Made by a program: the position numbers and the translations under genes. Below the pieces are notes generated by a model. It saw nothing but the letters and a program-made list of their open reading frames with translations, made no database searches and was not told the DNA's origin. 32,049 nucleotides of DNA from Burkholderiales bacterium (GTDB taxonomy: Bacteria; Pseudomonadota; Gammaproteobacteria; Burkholderiales; Burkholderiaceae_C): positions 1 to 32,049 of the forward strand of contig JAGWTP010000043.1 in the NCBI GenBank assembly GCA_028868895.1. The letters are read 5' to 3'. How positions within the stretch are numbered: the first letter of the stretch is position 1; every line of letters begins with the position of its first letter. This document shows, one piece after another, positions 203 through 7,254 of this stretch.

Positions 203-1039
203 TCACGCCGCCCAGGTGATCCAGCCCTGCCACCACGTCACCAGCACGACGATGCCGAAGGCGATCCGGTACCAGGCGAACGGCGTGAAGTCGTGCGTCG
301 AGATGTAGCGCAGCAACCAGCGCACCACGATCCACGCCACCAGGAACGACACCACCGTGCCCACCACCAGCAGCGGCACGTCGGCGCCCGACAGCGACGC
401 GCGCTCCTTCCACAGGCTGTAGACGCTCGCGCCGATCAGGATCGGGATCGCCAGGAAGAAGCTGAAGTCGGTGGCGACCTTGCGGCTCAGGCCGAACAGC
501 ATGCCGCCGATGATGGTCGCACCCGAGCGGCTCGTGCCCGGCACCAGCGCCAGGCTTTGCGCCAGGCCGACCTTCAGCGCGTCCAGCGGCGTCAGCTCGT
601 CGACCGAGTTCACACGCACGGTGCTGGCCGGCCGCCGCTCGGCCCACAGGATCACCAGGCCACCCAGGATGAAGGTGGCCGCGACCACCGCCGGCGTGAA
701 CAGGTGCGCCTTGATCGCCTTGTTGAACAGCACGCCGAGAATCGCCGCGGGCAAGAAGCCGATCAGCACGTTGAGCACGAAGCGGCGCTGGCGCGCGTCG
801 CCGCCGACCACGCCGGCCAGCGCCTCGCGCACGCGCTGCCAGTAGACGATCACCACCGCGACGATCGCACCGGCCTGGATCACGATCTCGAACAGCTTGG
901 CCGAATGGACGGTGGCGTCGGTGAAACCGATCAGCGAGCCGGCCAGGATCAGGTGCCCGGTGCTGGACACCGGCAGGAATTCGGTCAGCCCCTCGACGAT
1001 GCCCATGATCGCGGCTTTGAACAGAAGAATGAGGTCCAA
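203..1039 (-). CDS. uppP: undecaprenyl-diphosphatase (BacA/UppP)
   Basis: A 278-residue polytopic inner-membrane enzyme that removes a phosphate from undecaprenyl diphosphate and so recycles the lipid carrier for peptidoglycan and O-antigen synthesis. Both family signatures are present: the [14 protein letters not shown] segment at residues 16-29 (catalytic Glu16, Glu20, Ser26, His29) and GTSRSG at 168-173 with Arg171. Hydrophobic segments run throughout, and the length is normal for the family. The start is a TTG. On the coding strand GGAG stands six bases before it, and the N-terminus [17 protein letters not shown] matches what the family usually shows, so the next ATG (residue 12) would cut into the domain. 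The gene is transcribed away from the divergent DUF2249-nsrR unit. Confidence 0.95.
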
Positions 1040-1167
1040 CGACGGCTCCAGGCGGTTGAGGAAAGCGGCGATGTTACCGACGCCCTCGTGACCCGCCGGT
1101 GGCCGCTCGCCCGGCGCGCGCCGCGGGCACCCGGCGCAGGCGCGTACGCCGCCGAATCCGCGTTGGC

Positions 1168-1181
1168 TTGATGCGGATCAA
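1168..1181. promoter_or_regulatory. FNR/Anr/Dnr-type box, perfect palindrome
   Basis: The sequence reads TTGAT-GCGG-ATCAA, an exact match to the TTGAT-N4-ATCAA consensus of the FNR/CRP family of oxygen- and NO-responsive activators. Its centre is 1174.5. If it acts as a class II site centred at -41.5, transcription starts at about 1216 and the -10 hexamer falls on 1204-1209, which reads CAGAAT (4 of 6 matches to TATAAT, including the second A and final T). This places it correctly to activate the DUF2249-nsrR-nnrS unit when oxygen is low. Which paralogue (Fnr or Dnr) binds cannot be told from the box. Confidence 0.85.
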
Positions 1182-1209
1182 GCCCGGACGTGGCGTCCGC
1201 TTTCAGAAT

Positions 1210-1230
1210 AGATGCATTGCTGATGCACCT
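1210..1230. promoter_or_regulatory. NsrR-type operator overlapping the predicted start of transcription
   Basis: An imperfect palindrome of architecture AGATGCAT-N5-ATGCACCT. The published NsrR consensus has the same layout (AGATGCAT-N5-ATGCATCT), so only one base of the outer 16 differs. The nsrR gene itself lies two reading frames downstream at 1611. The site covers the transcription start (about 1216) predicted from the FNR box, where a bound repressor would block initiation. The likely logic is autoregulation: NsrR with an intact iron-sulfur cluster represses, and NO damage to the cluster releases it. The similarity is visible; the function is inferred. Confidence 0.75.
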
Positions 1231-1264
1231 TCTGAACAACTTCCTTCATTCCCACGGAGCCTCC

Positions 1265-1555
1265 ATGACCCGCACCGACGCCAACGCCTCCACCATCGAC
1301 GTCCGCAATATCGCCCCGCGCGAGCGCCATCCGCTGATCTTCTCGACCTTCCGCGGCCTGGCCGCCGGCCAGGCGATGGAGCTCGTCAACGACCACGACC
1401 CGAAGCCGCTGTACTACCAGTTCCAGACCGAGATGCCCGACACGTTTCGCTGGGACTACCTCGAGTCCGGCCCCGACACCTGGCGCGTGCGCATCGGCAA
1501 GCTCGCCGCGCCGCACGGCAACGGCTCGTGCTGCGGCTCGTGCGGCGGCGCCTGA
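1265..1555 (+). CDS. DUF2249 domain protein with cysteine-rich tail
   Basis: A 96-residue soluble protein. The central part has the DUF2249 pattern: Asp-Val-Arg near residue 12, HPLIFSTFRGLAAGQAMELV at 22-41, NDHDPKPLYYQ at 42-52 and a FRWDYLESGPDTWRV stretch. DUF2249 is a small TusA-like fold of unknown biochemical role that recurs next to denitrification and NO-response genes. The C-terminus ends GSCCGSCGGA, with Cys89, Cys90 and Cys93, which could bind a metal or take part in thiol chemistry; that is inference. The ATG at 1265 is chosen because CGGAG lies a few bases upstream and the domain begins soon after; a longer reading frame opens at 1190 but would begin upstream of the operator. 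First gene of the NsrR/FNR-controlled unit. Confidence 0.85.
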   Translation: MTRTDANASTIDVRNIAPRERHPLIFSTFRGLAAGQAMELVNDHDPKPLYYQFQTEMPDTFRWDYLESGPDTWRVRIGKLAAPHGNGSCCGSCGGA

Positions 1556-1610
1556 CCCCGCGAGCACGCGGCAAGAGCCCGCCAGGCGGTGCCGTTCCCA
1601 CAGGTCGAGC

Positions 1611-2063
1611 ATGAAACTCACCAGCTTCACCGACTACAGCCTGCGGGTGCTGATGTACCTGGCAGCCGAACCGGGTCGGCGCGCGACGATCGCGGAAGTG
1701 TCGTCGGCCTTCGGGGTCTCGCAGAACCACCTGACCAAGGTGGTTCACTTCCTCGGCCAGCAGGGCTGGCTCGCCAACGTGCGCGGCAAGGGCGGTGGCC
1801 TCGGGCTGGCGCTGCCGCCCGAGCGCATCGTCGTCGGCCAGGTGGTGCGCGCCACCGAAGGCGCGGCGCTGCCGGCCGAGTGCTTCGGCGACGATCCCTC
1901 GCGCTGCGCCATCGAGCGCTTCTGCCGCTTGCGCGGCGTGTTGACGCAAGCGGTCGACGCCTTTCATGCGGTGCTCGACGGCTACACGCTTGCCGATCTG
2001 GTGCTCAACCGAACGTCGTTGGCCAAGGTGTTGTTCGCCCCGCCGGCCGCGCACCGCGCTTGA
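1611..2063 (+). CDS. nsrR: Rrf2-family NO-sensing repressor NsrR
   Basis: A 150-residue transcription factor. The N-terminus MKLTSFTDYSLRVLMYLA is the classic NsrR opening, with Asp8 where the family's non-cysteine cluster ligand sits. A winged helix-turn-helix follows (about residues 25-65, with FGVSQNHLTKVVHFL as recognition helix and NVRGKGGGL as wing). The cluster-binding loop holds Cys91, Cys99 and Cys105; the spacing is C-x7-C-x5-C, slightly wider than in Escherichia coli. NsrR binds a [4Fe-4S] or [2Fe-2S] cluster that NO destroys, releasing DNA. The gene lies 55 bases after the DUF2249 gene and 89 bases before nnrS, in one direction, downstream of a matching operator. IscR is an unlikely alternative because the N-terminal and loop motifs fit NsrR. 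Confidence 0.92.
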   Translation: MKLTSFTDYSLRVLMYLAAEPGRRATIAEVSSAFGVSQNHLTKVVHFLGQQGWLANVRGKGGGLGLALPPERIVVGQVVRATEGAALPAECFGDDPSRCAIERFCRLRGVLTQAVDAFHAVLDGYTLADLVLNRTSLAKVLFAPPAAHRA

Positions 2064-2152
2064 GGCGCGCTGGCAGCGATCCTTCACGCGACGGGCCGAC
2101 GCGGTCGGAGCGCGCCTCGCACCACCCTCACCACCCTCACAGAGACTTCGCC

Positions 2153-3352
2153 ATGGCAACGTTCATCTCGATCGAGGAGCCGCAACGCCCCGCCGCCGCC
2201 GCACCGGCCGGCTTCGCGCTGTGGCAACTCGGCTTTCGGCCGTTCTACCTGCTCGCGAGCAGCTTCGCGGCGCTGTCGATCGCCCTGTGGGCGGCGCAGG
2301 TGGCCGGCTGGCTGAGCCACCCGTACCTGGCCGGGCCGCTGTGGCATGCCCATGAAATGCTGTTCGGCTTCACGCTCGCGGTGGTCGTGGGTTTTCTGCT
2401 GACGGCCGGGCGCAACTGGTCGAACCGACCGACGCTGACCGGCATACCGCTGGCGGCGCTGGCACTGCTGTGGGTGGCCGGGCGCGTGCTCGTGCTCACG
2501 CCGTTCGGCTGGGCCGCCGCGATCGTCGATGCAGCCTTTCCGATGGCTGCGGCGGTGGCGCTGGCGGTGCCGTTCTGGGCCGCGCGCAACCGGCGCAACT
2601 ACTTCTTCGTCGGCCTGCTGGTGCTGCTGGGCGTGGCCGACCTGGCGATCCACCTGTCGCAGCTCGGCGTGATCGCGCTGCCCGCCTGGCTGGGCCTGCA
2701 GCTCGCGCTCGACGTGGTGCTGTTCATCATGGCGGTGATGGCCGGGCGCGTCGTTCCGATGTTCACCAACAACGGCGTGCCGGGCGCCGGCGCCGCGCGC
2801 CACGCGGCGGTCGAAAAGGCCGCGCTCGGCGCGGTGCTGGCGCTGCTGGCGGCCGACCTGCTGGGCCTGCACGGCCTCGCGCTGGCCGCCATCGCGCTGT
2901 TCGGTGCGCTCGCGCACGGCCTGCGCTGGGCGCTGTGGAAACCCTGGAAGACCTGGCGCGTTCCGATCGTGTGGGTGCTGCAACTGGCGTATGCCTGGAT
3001 CCCGGTGCATCTGGCGCTGCGCGCGGCCGCCGAACTCGGCTGGGTTGCCGGCTCCGCCGCCACCCATGCGCTGACGGTGGGCGCTGCCGGCGGCCTGGTG
3101 ATCGGCATGATGACGCGCACCTCGCGCGGCCACACCGCGCGGCCGCTGCGCGCCGACGGCTACGACCTCGCCTGCTACGTGCTCGTCGCGCTGGCCGCGT
3201 TCGTGCGCGTGCTGGTGCCGCTGGCGGTGCCGGTGTGGGCACTGCCCGCGATCGTGGGTTCGGCGGCGCTCTGGTCGGCCGGGTTCGGGTTGTTCGCGCT
3301 GCGCTACTGGCCGGTGCTGACCCGCCCGCGCCTGGACGGCAAACCGGGCTGA
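2153..3352 (+). CDS. nnrS: NnrS family haem- and copper-containing membrane protein
   Basis: A 399-residue inner-membrane protein with about twelve hydrophobic segments. The opening FALWQLGFRPFYLLASSFAA, then LWHAHEMLFGF (about residues 64-74) and the central GRVVPMFTNNGVPGAGA segment are hallmarks of NnrS. Members are linked to relief of nitrosative stress and protect iron-sulfur enzymes under NO; several are regulated by NsrR or NnrR. The ATG at 2153 is preferred over the much longer open frame because it starts just before the conserved LWQLGFRPF motif and because nsrR occupies the sequence before it. A short AGAG lies upstream, so translation initiation may be modest. The gap to nsrR has a 9-base direct repeat (ACCACCCTC twice at 2121-2138). 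Confidence 0.92.
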   Translation: MATFISIEEPQRPAAAAPAGFALWQLGFRPFYLLASSFAALSIALWAAQVAGWLSHPYLAGPLWHAHEMLFGFTLAVVVGFLLTAGRNWSNRPTLTGIPLAALALLWVAGRVLVLTPFGWAAAIVDAAFPMAAAVALAVPFWAARNRRNYFFVGLLVLLGVADLAIHLSQLGVIALPAWLGLQLALDVVLFIMAVMAGRVVPMFTNNGVPGAGAARHAAVEKAALGAVLALLAADLLGLHGLALAAIALFGALAHGLRWALWKPWKTWRVPIVWVLQLAYAWIPVHLALRAAAELGWVAGSAATHALTVGAAGGLVIGMMTRTSRGHTARPLRADGYDLACYVLVALAAFVRVLVPLAVPVWALPAIVGSAALWSAGFGLFALRYWPVLTRPRLDGKPG

Positions 3353-3356
3353 TCCG

Positions 3357-3752
3357 ATGGACTACCTCGTGCTCAAGACGATCCACATGAGCGCCGTCGC
3401 GCTGTCGGTCACCGGCTTTTTCGGGCGCGGAATCGGTGCGCTCGCCGGCGCGCGCTGGGTGCGCAGCCGCCTGGCCAGGACGCTGCCGCACGTCGTCGAC
3501 TCGGTGCTGCTGCTGTCGGCGATCGCGCTGGCGTGGCGGCTGCGCCTGGACCCGCTGGCGACGCCGTGGCTGATGGCGAAGATCATCGGCCTGCTCGCCT
3601 ACATCGTGCTGGGCATGGTCGCGCTGCGCCCCGGGCGGCCCTGGCCGGTGCGGGCGACGGCGTGGGTTCTGGCGCTAGTGACCTTCGGCTACATCGTCTC
3701 GGTGGCCATCACCAAGAGCCCGGCGGGATGGCTCGGCTCGTTCCCCGGTTGA
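3357..3752 (+). CDS. SirB2-family small membrane protein
   Basis: A 131-residue protein with four predicted membrane helices. The N-terminal LVLKTIHMSAVALSVTGFFG, the HVVDSVLLLSAIALAWRL segment and the C-terminal TKSPAGWLG are typical of the SirB2 family (named after a putative Salmonella invasion regulator; real function unknown). It starts only four bases after the nnrS stop, so it is almost certainly cotranscribed and translationally coupled. The conserved His10 after the first lysine could be a haem or metal ligand, but this is a guess. Context ties it to the NO/low-oxygen response rather than to invasion. Moderately sure of the family, unsure of the role. Confidence 0.85.
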   Translation: MDYLVLKTIHMSAVALSVTGFFGRGIGALAGARWVRSRLARTLPHVVDSVLLLSAIALAWRLRLDPLATPWLMAKIIGLLAYIVLGMVALRPGRPWPVRATAWVLALVTFGYIVSVAITKSPAGWLGSFPG

Positions 3753-3993
3753 TACCGCGGCCGGTGCGGGCACGGACCGCGCCGCCATCCCCCGAACGCG
3801 TGCGCACCGCGTCGCGCGCCTTGCGCACGCGACTGCGCACCTTGCCGCCGACCCTGGCGATGCACGACCTCTCGGCCACCCCGGCACGGTCCATCCGCAC
3901 CGCAAGGTAGTTCGCCAGCTGCGCTGCGCTGGAGCAGCCGGAGCACGAGCAGACCAGTGGCAGGTGCGAGTGGTCGGTCGCCGCGCGCAGCAC
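3709..3993 (-). pseudogene. remnant of a DGC-domain putative zinc-binding protein
   Basis: On the minus strand a frame beginning at a GTG (3993) encodes LPLVCSCSGCSSAAQLANYL and then a VRMDRAGVAERSCIARVGG stretch. This is clearly the N-terminal half of the DGC family (pfam08859), whose intact members read LPLVYSCSGCSSAAQ and end with a D-G-C-P-L-x-C motif that gives the family its name. Here the similarity fades near 3805 and the frame runs on as low-complexity arginine-rich sequence to a stop at 3709. The two other minus frames do not supply the missing DGCPLxC part. It appears to be a truncated gene in decay. It lies between the two denitrification units, opposite in direction to both. Confidence 0.7.
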
Positions 3994-4264
3994 CCCGGCG
4001 GCGTCGCTCGCTCGTCGAGAACCCAATGCGTGTTCATGAAGCCCGATTGGGTCAGCATGACGCCGGTGCGGTTTCGTTGCAGCGCCAGGGTCCTCGGAAA
4101 CATGGCACGGCAACGTGCCGCACCCGCGGGTCGCGGGGCGCGCTCGCGCATGCCGGTGTCCGCGTGGTTTTTCTTGTCCGACATCAAGGCCACGCACGGA
4201 CTCGCCTCGTATCGTGCATTGCGGCGTTGGCTGCTTCGAATCGAACAAGCACGGGGAGGACTCC
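3753..4264. other. 512-base intergenic stretch between the SirB2-like gene and nirK
   Basis: The stretch holds the DGC-family remnant on the minus strand (similarity roughly 3805-3966), the FNR-like box and -10 element of the nirK promoter (4174-4215), and the nirK leader. The reading frames that cross it on the plus strand show no recognisable protein and lack good ribosome-binding sites. No terminator with a T-run was found after the SirB2-like gene. The part between about 4000 and 4170 shows nothing identifiable. Confidence 0.6.
4174..4187. promoter_or_regulatory. FNR/Dnr-like box of the nirK promoter
   Basis: The sequence reads TTGTC-CGAC-ATCAA. The right half is perfect and the left half keeps TTG, giving 8 of 10 matches to TTGAT-N4-ATCAA. 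With the centre at 4180.5 set to -41.5, the start of transcription is about 4222 and the -10 hexamer at 4210-4215 reads TATCGT (4 of 6 matches). Both the box and the hexamer sit where a class II FNR/Dnr promoter needs them, 43 bases before the nirK ATG. A GTGCAT sequence at 4214-4219 resembles half of an NsrR site, but there is no matching second half. Confidence 0.65.
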
Positions 4265-5755
4265 ATGATCCAAGGTCTCAGAACCATCATCGTCGGCGGC
4301 GCGATCGCCTGCGGACTGAGCGCCGCATTCGGCGCTACGTCCGAAGCGCAGGCGCCCGTCAAGTGGGCCGGTGACTTCGGGCCGCCGCAAGGCGCACCGA
4401 TCCACGCGGTGCTGACGAGCCCGCCGAACGTGCCGCCACCGACCCACCGCACGGTGCCGGCCAAGGTCATCGTCGAGCTCGAGGTGGTCGAGAAGAACAT
4501 GCCGATCTCCGAGGGCGTGTCGTACACGTTCTGGACCTTCGGCGGCACGGTGCCCGGCAGCTTCATCCGCGTGCGCCAGGGCGACACGGTCGAGTTCCAC
4601 CTGAAGAACAACCCGAACAACAAGATGCCGCACAACATCGACCTGCACGGCGTCACCGGCCCCGGCGGTGGTGCGGCGTCGAGCTTCACCGCGCCCGGCC
4701 ACGAGTCGCAGTTCACGTTCAAGGCGCTCAACGAGGGCATCTACGTGTACCACTGCGCCACCGCGCCGGTGGGCATGCACGTGGCCAACGGCATGTACGG
4801 GCTGATCCTGGTCGAGCCGCCCGAAGGGCTGAGCAAGGTCGACCACGAGTACTACGTGATGCAGGGCGACTTCTACACGACCGGCAAGTACCGCGAAAAG
4901 GGGCTGCAGCCCTTCGACATGGAAAAGGCGATCGACGAGCGCCCGACCTACGTGCTGTTCAACGGCGCCGAAGGCTCGCTGACCGGCGACAAGGCGATCA
5001 CCGCCAAGACCAACGAGACCGTGCGCCTGTTCATCGGCAACGGCGGGCCGAACCTGGTGTCGAGCTTCCACGTCATCGGCGCGATCTTCGACAAGGTGCG
5101 CTTTGAAGGCGGCACCAACACGCAGAGCAACGTGCAGACCACGTTGATCCCGGCCGGCGGCGCGGCCGCGGTGGAGTTCAGCACCAAGGTCCCGGGCAGC
5201 TACGTGCTGGTCGATCACTCGATCTTTCGGGCCTTCAACAAGGGCGCCCTGGCAATCCTGAAGGTCAGCGGCCCCGAAGACAAGACCATCTACTCCGGCA
5301 AGGAGCTCGACTCGGTCTACCTCGGTGACCGCTCGCAGCCGAACCTGCAGGCGGTGACGACCGCGGCGCACGCCGCCGCCACCGGAACCCTGACGCTGCA
5401 GGACCAGGTCCAGGCCGGCCAGGCGCTGTTCGCGGGCACCTGCTCGGTGTGCCACCAGGCCAATGGCGCGGGGCTGGCCGGCGTGTTCCCGCCGCTGGCG
5501 AAGTCCGACTACCTCGGCGCCGACCCGAAGCGCGCGATCGGCGTCGTGCTGCACGGCCTGACCGGCAAGGTCAGCGTCAACGGCGGCGACTACAACTCGG
5601 TGATGCCGCCGATGAACCAGCTCAACGACGACGAGGTCGCCAACATCCTGACCTACGTACTCAACAGCTGGGGCAACCCGGGCGGGCGCATCCTCACCGA
5701 CGACGTCAAGAAGGTGCGGGCCGCGAAACCGGCCGCACCGGCCGCGGCGCATTGA
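4265..5755 (+). CDS. nirK: copper-containing nitrite reductase with C-terminal cytochrome c domain
   Basis: A 496-residue periplasmic enzyme reducing nitrite to NO. A signal peptide covers residues 1-30 (cleavage likely after SEAQA). Two cupredoxin domains follow. Type 1 copper ligands are His123, Cys164, His172 and Met177; type 2 ligands are His128, His163 and His318; the catalytic pair is Asp126 and His269. After a linker (about 340-385) a cytochrome c domain carries CSVCH at 393-397 and candidate axial methionines 447 or 450 in SVMPPM. Typical NirK is about 340-380 residues; the fused haem domain is known from Ralstonia pickettii-type enzymes and probably passes electrons directly to the type 1 copper. 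The start at 4265 follows GGGGAGGA and begins the signal peptide; longer frames upstream lack support. Followed after 8 bases by nirV. Confidence 0.97.
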
Positions 5756-5763
5756 GCCCGGCG

Positions 5764-6609
5764 ATGTCCGCGCCGCACCGCCGCCACACCGCGCGCCGCT
5801 TGCCGGCGCGGGTGCTGTGGCACGCACGCGGCCTGCTGGCGCTGCTGCCGACGGCATTGCTGAGCGTGGCGCTGCTGAGCGTGCCCGGCGCCGCCCACGC
5901 GGCCGACTACGTGCAATTGCCTGCCGGCACGCTGACCAGCGTGCTGGCGAGCGACGCCGACAAGGGCCCGCTGCCGGTGGCCGCGTTCGCGATGCGTGTG
6001 ACCCCGGTGACCCAGGGCGAGTACCTGCGCTTCGTCGGTGCGCACCCCGCATGGCGGCGCGACCGCATCGCGCGCACCTTTGCCGACACCGGCTACCTGC
6101 GCGACTGGCGCGCGCCGCTCGAGCTGCCCGAGCCGGCGGCGCAGCGGCGCCCCGTGACCAACGTGAGCTGGTTCGCCGCGCAGGCCTATTGCGAAGCCGA
6201 GGGCGCTCGCCTGCCGACCTGGACCGAATGGGAATACGCGGCCGCCGCCGATGCGACCCGCCGCGACGCCCGCGCCGACCCGGCCTGGCGTGCGCGCATC
6301 CTCGCGTGGTACTCGCGCCCCGCCGACACCGCGCTGCCCGACGTCGGTGGCGCGCCCGACGTCTACGGCGTGCGCGACCTGCACAGCCTGATCTGGGAGT
6401 GGGTCGACGACTTCAATGCACTGCTCGTCAGCCCCGACAGCCGCGCCGGCGACGACCCCGACAAGCTGAAGTTCTGCGGCGCCGGCGCGATCAACCTGAA
6501 GGACCGCGAGAACTACGCGGTGCTGATGCGCATCGCGCTGCTGTCTTCGCTCAACGCTTCCGACAGTACCAGCAGCCTGGGCTTCCGCTGCGTGCGCCCC
6601 CTGCCCTGA
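5764..6609 (+). CDS. nirV: NirV-type SUMF1/formylglycine-generating-enzyme-like protein
   Basis: A 281-residue exported protein. A long arginine-rich n-region and a hydrophobic core lead to a cleavage site near AHA-AD (residue 47-48). The remainder is an FGE/SUMF1 domain: VTPVTQGEYLRF, VTNVSWFAAQAYCEAEGARL, TWTEWEYAAAAD, GVRDLHSLIWEWVDDFNA and a terminal SSLGFRCV. In sulfatase-activating enzymes a cysteine pair near the C-terminus is catalytic; here the equivalent stretch after KFCGAG has no such pair, so formylglycine formation is unlikely. NirV proteins are found directly downstream of nirK in several denitrifiers, and their role is unresolved (assembly or electron transfer to NirK have been considered). 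It starts 8 bases after nirK and is surely in the same transcript. Confidence 0.88.
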   Translation: MSAPHRRHTARRLPARVLWHARGLLALLPTALLSVALLSVPGAAHAADYVQLPAGTLTSVLASDADKGPLPVAAFAMRVTPVTQGEYLRFVGAHPAWRRDRIARTFADTGYLRDWRAPLELPEPAAQRRPVTNVSWFAAQAYCEAEGARLPTWTEWEYAAAADATRRDARADPAWRARILAWYSRPADTALPDVGGAPDVYGVRDLHSLIWEWVDDFNALLVSPDSRAGDDPDKLKFCGAGAINLKDRENYAVLMRIALLSSLNASDSTSSLGFRCVRPLP

Positions 6610-6621
6610 GGACAACTCACG

Positions 6622-7254
6622 ATGACCTGCCCGACCCTTGCACGCCCGACCCGCCACGCCCTGCTCGGCCTGCTGCTGGCCGGCGCCGCGAGCCTGGCCG
6701 TTGCGACACCGGCCGCCGCGCCGGTCTCGTCCACGACCGCGGCCCCGCTGCCCGCCGACTCGATCTACCAGCTCGCGCTGCCGCTGACCGACCAGACCGG
6801 GCGCAACTTCCGCCTCGACGAACGCCGCGGCCAGCCGATGCTGGTCAGCATGTTCTACACCTCGTGCCAGTTCGTCTGCCCGATGCTGATCGACGCGCTG
6901 CGCGACACCGAGGCGCGGCTGACCGACGCCGAGCGCGCCCGATTGCACGTGCTGATGGTCAGCTTCGACCCGGCGCACGACGGCGTGGCCGTGCTCAAGC
7001 GCACCGCCGACCAGCGCCATCTCGACGCCGCCCACTGGAGCCTGGCGCGCACCGACGCCAGGCACGTGCGCAAGCTCGCCGCCGTGCTCGGCATCCAGTA
7101 CCGTGCGCTGCCCGACGGCGAGTTCAACCACACCACCGCACTGATCCTGATCGACGCCGAGGGCCGCATCGCCGGGCGCACCGCGAAACTCGGCGACGCC
7201 GACCCGGCATTCGTCAAGCTCGTCAAGGCCTCGGTGCAGGCCGGGTCGAACTGA
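6622..7254 (+). CDS. SCO1/SenC family copper chaperone-like protein
   Basis: A 210-residue exported thioredoxin-fold protein. Residues 1-33 form a signal sequence or anchor. The SCO copper site is complete: TSCQFVCPM holds Cys82 and Cys86 (C-x3-C) and FNHTT holds the distal His170. SCO proteins deliver copper to or reduce cysteines of the CuA centre of cytochrome oxidase. This one is the last gene of the nirK-nirV transcript, 12 bases after nirV, and no oxidase gene is in the window, so loading copper into NirK is the simplest reading. GAGGACAA before the ATG serves as ribosome-binding site. Confidence 0.9.
   Translation: MTCPTLARPTRHALLGLLLAGAASLAVATPAAAPVSSTTAAPLPADSIYQLALPLTDQTGRNFRLDERRGQPMLVSMFYTSCQFVCPMLIDALRDTEARLTDAERARLHVLMVSFDPAHDGVAVLKRTADQRHLDAAHWSLARTDARHVRKLAAVLGIQYRALPDGEFNHTTALILIDAEGRIAGRTAKLGDADPAFVKLVKASVQAGSN

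Follow-up and report, generated by a model that had tools for sequence, protein, structure and literature searches.

What controls a short run of NO-related genes that has an FNR/DNR-type box and an NsrR-type palindrome directly upstream? The window, a stretch of 32,049 nucleotides, is the whole of one contig (C8) of a Burkholderiales draft genome of 4.07 Mb in 196 contigs. We asked whether the two sites at 1168–1230 form a promoter that joins activation by an FNR-family protein with repression by NsrR. Our own handles for loci (L), genomes (G) and contigs (C) are given where they are needed to tell items apart.

The genes and the two sites

The features on which the argument turns are as follows.

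203–1039, minus strand: gene of the BacA/undecaprenyl-diphosphatase family, divergent (PF02673, 7e-87)
1168–1181, plus strand: FNR/DNR-type box TTGATGCGGATCAA, TTGAT-N4-ATCAA with no mismatch
1204–1209, plus strand: putative -10 hexamer CAGAAT, imperfect, abutting the operator start, with no recognisable -35
1210–1230, plus strand: NsrR-type operator AGATGCATTGCTGATGCACCT, read as AGATGCAT-N5-ATGCACCT, one mismatch, covering the inferred start at about 1216
1265–1555, plus strand: DUF2249 protein of 96 aa, encoded by the unit's first gene (PF10006, 1.2e-31)
1611–2063, plus strand: nsrR-like gene for an Rrf2 repressor of 150 aa, its three cysteines separated by X7 and X5 (PF02082, 1.1e-33)
2153–3352, plus strand: nnrS, 399 aa (PF05940, 1.9e-105)
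3357–3752, plus strand: SirB-family protein, 131 aa, starting 4 bases after nnrS
4265–5755, plus strand: nirK, copper nitrite reductase with a fused C-terminal cytochrome c domain, neighbour of the unit

Because the BacA-family gene is divergent, positions 1040–1264 constitute the intergenic 5′ region of the unit, whose first gene encodes a DUF2249 protein, a family that we take to be COG4309. The gaps between DUF2249, nsrR and nnrS are 55 and 89 bases and therefore leave room for internal promoters; no terminator-like sites are listed in either gap. A SirB-family gene also stands behind nnrS at, for example, L063, L081 and L092. Upstream of nirK lies a weak FNR-like box with two mismatches (TTGTCCGACATCAA, 4174–4187); the hexamer in the slot for a class II -10 is TATCGT, and 4174–4215 has no NsrR operator. 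The stretch 4265–7254 encodes NirK and then FGE-sulfatase-like and SCO1/SenC-like proteins.

The earlier note on this DNA had described an exact FNR-type box followed 28 bases on by a near-perfect NsrR palindrome, with an NsrR-family regulator encoded in the same unit. Both sites and the gap (1182–1209, 28 bases; start-to-start distance 44) are as it said, and the regulator gene lies within the unit here and in many relatives. The box at 1168–1181 is the only exact TTGAT-N4-ATCAA in the window, where eight FNR-type sites with up to two mismatches were found against 2.1 expected. Since the whole genome holds eight exact copies, the box taken alone is weak evidence. The operator differs at one position from the NsrR palindrome AGATGCAT-N5-ATGCATCT, and the window has no second NsrR-type site at up to three mismatches (0.09 expected; at least one site in 8 of 100 shuffles). 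The mismatch puts a C where the right arm of the consensus has T, an accepted form of the operator, since C holds that position in 12 of the 18 regions that were aligned (counting the window). A search of 1040–4300 returned no sigma-70 -35/-10 pair, which, with 0.1 expected by chance, is weak evidence and says little, but agrees with an activator-dependent promoter.

Conservation of the site pair

The comparison covered 110 DUF2249 upstream regions, namely the window's own, 29 from a family search (DUF2249 in 49 of 150 genomes; 30 loci taken, including that of the window) and the best 80 of 366 relatives in GTDB genomes. After removal of 2 too-short and 18 near-duplicate regions, 90 were counted, allowing up to two mismatches in the FNR-type box and up to three in the NsrR-type site. 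At these thresholds the box occurred in 44 regions and the operator in 44, compared with 5.5 and 8.9 regions in shuffled sequence, and 31 regions held both. The start-to-start distance was 43–45 in 26 of these 31 (43 in 4, 44 in 19 and 45 in 3; 44 in the window). Thus 26 of the 90 regions, the window included, carry the pair at this spacing, against a mean of 0.01 and a maximum of 1 in 200 dinucleotide shuffles. A chance origin is therefore untenable, and by the evidence of sequence comparison box and operator together are a real control element. The earlier note had proposed this comparison of orthologous upstream regions, and both sites were indeed found at a conserved spacing.

The class II pair is absent from 64 of the 90 DUF2249 upstream regions. 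Three plasmid records were added to the comparison; the distance is 43 in those of Cupriavidus metallidurans and Variovorax and 63 in that of Eleftheria terrae. A strict joint two-site pattern, run on 399 genomes from Burkholderiales, matched the window only, with no control matches listed; this pattern is too strict, 11 other genomes of the same family being listed, and it gauges the low chance background, not prevalence.

A -10 element locked to the operator

Eighteen of the 19 regions with a spacing of 44, the window's among them, entered a column table (one was too short), with slots numbered from a start placed 48 bases after the box begins. The -10 slot read T in 10, A in 16, two free positions, A in 16 and T in all 18, that is, TAnnAT with T at -12, A at -11, A at -8 and T at -7. 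None of these -10 columns had been part of the search patterns, unlike the cores of box and operator, which were selected for. The conserved operator in the aligned regions extends to AGRTGCAT-N5-ATGCAYCTT, and the -10 element ends immediately before its first base. Because the spacer between box and -10 (columns 14–31) holds only about 0.23 bits per column, the shared elements do not reflect mere closeness of the sequences. The centre of the window's box, 1174.5, falls at -41.5 relative to the inferred start at 1216, the class II position, with the -10 in register. The proposal that the NsrR site lies over the transcription start near 1216 thus gains support from the comparison, in which a conserved -10 occupies the predicted slot, the start itself being deduced from sequence.

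A second geometry was seen in four of the 90 regions (L044, L055, L076 and L092) and in the Eleftheria record (L150), where the box begins 62–66 bases before the operator. Here the -10/operator unit is unchanged and the FNR box lies 18–22 bases further upstream than in the first geometry; counted from the inferred start it is at about -59.5 to -63.5, within the range of class I FNR sites. L054 and L057 match a spacing of 62 with one operator mismatch above the threshold, and L051 does so with two above. L123 shows distances of 31 and 76, and L105 fits class II at 43 with four operator mismatches. The 44-base spacing of the window is therefore one of two geometries.

Gene context of the promoter

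The class II pair was found in 25 of the 38 units that have NorB, NsrR or NnrS downstream (same strand, within 4.5 kb) and in 1 of the 52 others; with NorB downstream it was found in 20 of 22 units. The loci from the family search had a flank of 1500, so that for them the context counts are lower bounds. In the commonest order, that of 17 of the 29 units that have NsrR downstream, NorB lies between DUF2249 and NsrR, as at L063, where Pfam and solved relatives identify NorB as a qNorB, and in the annotated Eleftheria record. This norB-containing order, common in relatives, was absent from the earlier note. The window shares the norB-less order DUF2249-nsrR-nnrS with L072, L081, L092, L105, L110 and L123 (at L105 nnrS lies somewhat further on), and only three of these seven units hold the class II pair within the mismatch limits applied.

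Which activator reads the box

The sequence of the box cannot separate FNR from DNR, and we consider an oxygen-sensing FNR the most likely activator, with rather better than even confidence. A PF00325 search of the window genome returned six CRP/FNR proteins. Among them, L002 is a cysteine-bearing FNR (CSSCNLRELC) that at 234 bits passes the NCBIfam Fnr cut-off of 228, so that a cluster-bearing FNR is encoded in this genome. L004 is a cysteine-bearing homologue (CSDCELRALC) that at 198.8 bits stays below the cut-off, L003 and L006 are FNR-like paralogues that lack the cysteines, and L001 and L005 are CRP-like. All five comparison genomes encode a cysteine-bearing FNR; four of them have the composite promoter and the fifth (G143) the operator only.

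The main contender, appreciably less probable than FNR but to be taken seriously, is a DNR-type, NO-responsive activator of the FNR family, with which NO would act twice, through activation and through derepression, and oxygen only indirectly. Such an activator is suggested by the two cysteine-less paralogues, of which L003 has an FNR-type recognition helix and an exact box before its own gene; however, neither looks like an orthologue of solved DNR, L003 scoring 114.9 bits with FNR and having no match to solved DNR at 1e-5, and L006 scoring 93.9 bits with FNR against 45.4 with solved DNR. Moreover, no member of the L003-type clade was found in G157 and G158 (a Ralstonia MAG and a Polaromonas), both of which have the composite promoter. 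On these scores and on this distribution we favour FNR. The PF00325 search did miss at least one CRP-type protein, FtrB-like and encoded on contig C155, so that the list of six is incomplete and a DNR could be missed likewise, here or in the comparison genomes; we have lowered our confidence in FNR for this reason. For DNR there is also a precedent, in that the available text of Rodionov et al. (2005) names DNR for the sites upstream of COG4309-norB in R. solanacearum, which share the TTGATnnnnATCAA core (PMC1274295). The exact box upstream of the L003 gene (contig C47, 10228–10241) in itself suggests a regulatory cascade.

Which repressor reads the palindrome

NsrR is the best NCBIfam family for the regulator encoded in the window, at 126.6 bits, below the equivalog cut-off of 182. 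Its closest solved relative is Streptomyces NsrR (5n07, 1.4e-20), and within its Rrf2 domain the three cysteines align with the cluster cysteines of S. coelicolor NsrR. We regard it as NsrR-like, a sequence-based assignment with which the operator type and the neighbouring genes agree. It is improbable that another Rrf2 protein, RirA- or IscR-like and sensing iron or Fe–S status, uses the palindrome as its operator. The RirA score of 116.6 bits, likewise below its cut-off, nearly equals that for NsrR, and the X7 and X5 spacing of the cysteines resembles that of RirA; however, the palindrome fits the NsrR consensus, NO genes surround the regulator gene, and among solved proteins NsrR is its best relative.

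A mismatch-free copy of the operator core ATGCAT-N5-ATGCA lies at a single further position in the genome, directly before a BrnT/BrnA toxin–antitoxin pair. There (L008, contig C146, about 1265–1285) a perfect ATGCAT-N5-ATGCAT resembles an NsrR site closely enough for a motif scan to miscall it. With up to one mismatch allowed, the core matched the genome in 16 rows, which count some palindromes twice, once per strand; two matches outside the window were inspected, L008 and L021 (at the start of a CcmH gene), and ten more one-mismatch loci are L011–L020.

Least probable of all is that NsrR alone controls the unit and the FNR-type box is a relic or a chance match, as the eight exact boxes in the genome and the 13 of 90 regions with an NsrR site but, at the thresholds used, no FNR box might suggest, since the spacing is held at 43–45 in 26 of the 31 regions with both sites.

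Proposed mechanism

We put at about 0.77 the probability that 1168–1230 is a class II FNR-type/NsrR promoter of DUF2249-nsrR-nnrS-sirB, a reading in which binding, start point, signal logic, co-transcription and autoregulation are all predictions. An FNR-type activator dimer at 1168–1181, centred at -41.5 in the class II position, would recruit RNA polymerase, which would engage the promoter through the -10 at 1204–1209, the -35 not being recognisable. NsrR at 1210–1230 would cover the start point and block it, until NO damaged its iron–sulphur cluster and so lifted the block. Because nsrR lies inside the unit, NsrR would also limit its own level, provided that nsrR is transcribed mainly from this promoter, a condition on which the room for internal promoters bears. 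The simplest logic, by analogy with Neisseria aniA, would be a joint requirement for low oxygen and NO. The Fe–S cluster of FNR is itself damaged by NO, and the response may therefore be a pulse or a window instead of a clean AND.

Relation to known systems

Promoters of the E. coli hcp/hmp type carry an NsrR palindrome of the same consensus, and that of hcp combines FNR and NsrR, with other genes and other site positions than in the window. At the meningococcal aniA (nirK) promoter, FNR is essential, NsrR represses and NO relieves the repression, according to the available text (PMC10187123). FNR activation with NO-relieved NsrR repression is what we propose here; aniA differs in responding also to NarQP and Fur, and the text available there does not describe nsrR as part of the regulated unit (PMC10187123).

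The nearest precedent is the 2005 prediction, in the accessible part of Rodionov et al., of an upstream DNR site and a downstream NsrR site at COG4309-norB of R. solanacearum and at nnrS2 of Burkholderia (PMC1274295). There, COG4309 is also a predicted member of the NsrR regulon in three beta-proteobacteria, and nnrS can share a possible operon with nsrR (PMC1274295). For R. solanacearum, the text available from a later study reports RegPrecise NsrR sites at norB and at hmpX (PMC9045102). Another, in what is accessible of it, links DUF2249 proteins to denitrification in haloarchaea and notes a proposed role as nitrate sensors in Thermus (PMC11218638). The R. solanacearum unit, as far as that source describes it, resembles ours in the kind of first gene, the FNR-type box upstream and the NsrR site downstream, and differs in that the window lacks norB and has nsrR-nnrS-sirB after DUF2249, and in that the published activator is DNR (PMC1274295). 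One Ralstonia MAG in our set (L090) combines the pair, spaced 44 bases start to start, with NorB downstream. The DNR/NsrR-site architecture, on the available text, is thus already predicted in 2005 (PMC1274295), a precedent that the earlier note does not mention. In the open-licence literature, as far as its accessible text extends, we found neither the fixed register nor the locking of -10 to operator nor the two box positions described, and to that extent these are additions to the 2005 prediction; a search there for DUF2249 together with nsrR gave no match.

A unit without norB in a genome without a recognised NO reductase

The unit in the window has no norB and is adjoined by nirK. The qNorB of L063, for which NCBIfam named no family, served as the probe for NO reductase, and with it no qNorB/cNorB relative was found in the window genome. 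Of 12 genomes searched with this probe, 10 gave matches, among them the one from which it came; the two negatives are the window genome and G151. Five of the matches are full-length (40–100% identity), and in five genomes they reach only 31–32% over about residues 275–755, the part of the probe that also matches solved cNorB. The globin, Prismane and ScdA_N families, standing for flavohaemoglobin, Hcp and RIC (the last judged by ScdA_N alone), were likewise not found in the window genome and were found in 3, 5 and 3 control genomes, respectively. Because the assembly is a draft of 196 contigs, the absence of NO reductase and of these families is likely, not certain.

PF00115 picks out four heme–copper oxidases in the window genome: COX1 (L141), CcoN, a ba3-like enzyme and a divergent one. 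Contig C155 (14000–31000, L179) encodes the last two: subunit I of a ba3-like oxidase, and a divergent protein resembling COX1, 491 aa as cut, for which no named family beyond COX1 was found. From their sequences, these two non-standard oxidases might be candidates for an unusual NO reductase in a substitute role. The organism is possibly a partial denitrifier without a canonical NO reductase. We also entertain, as an unlikely though conceivable history, that in this lineage a conserved norB promoter outlived norB and now drives DUF2249, NsrR, NnrS and SirB in a genome that produces NO through nirK, with DUF2249 and NnrS, perhaps together with the ba3-like oxidase, being sufficient for NO defence.

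A promoter class earlier predicted as a pair of sites now has an anatomy, with the operator locked to the -10 element and the FNR-type box at either of two positions. The window adds a natural example of NnrS and DUF2249 apparently under NO control without norB, so that their role becomes directly testable.
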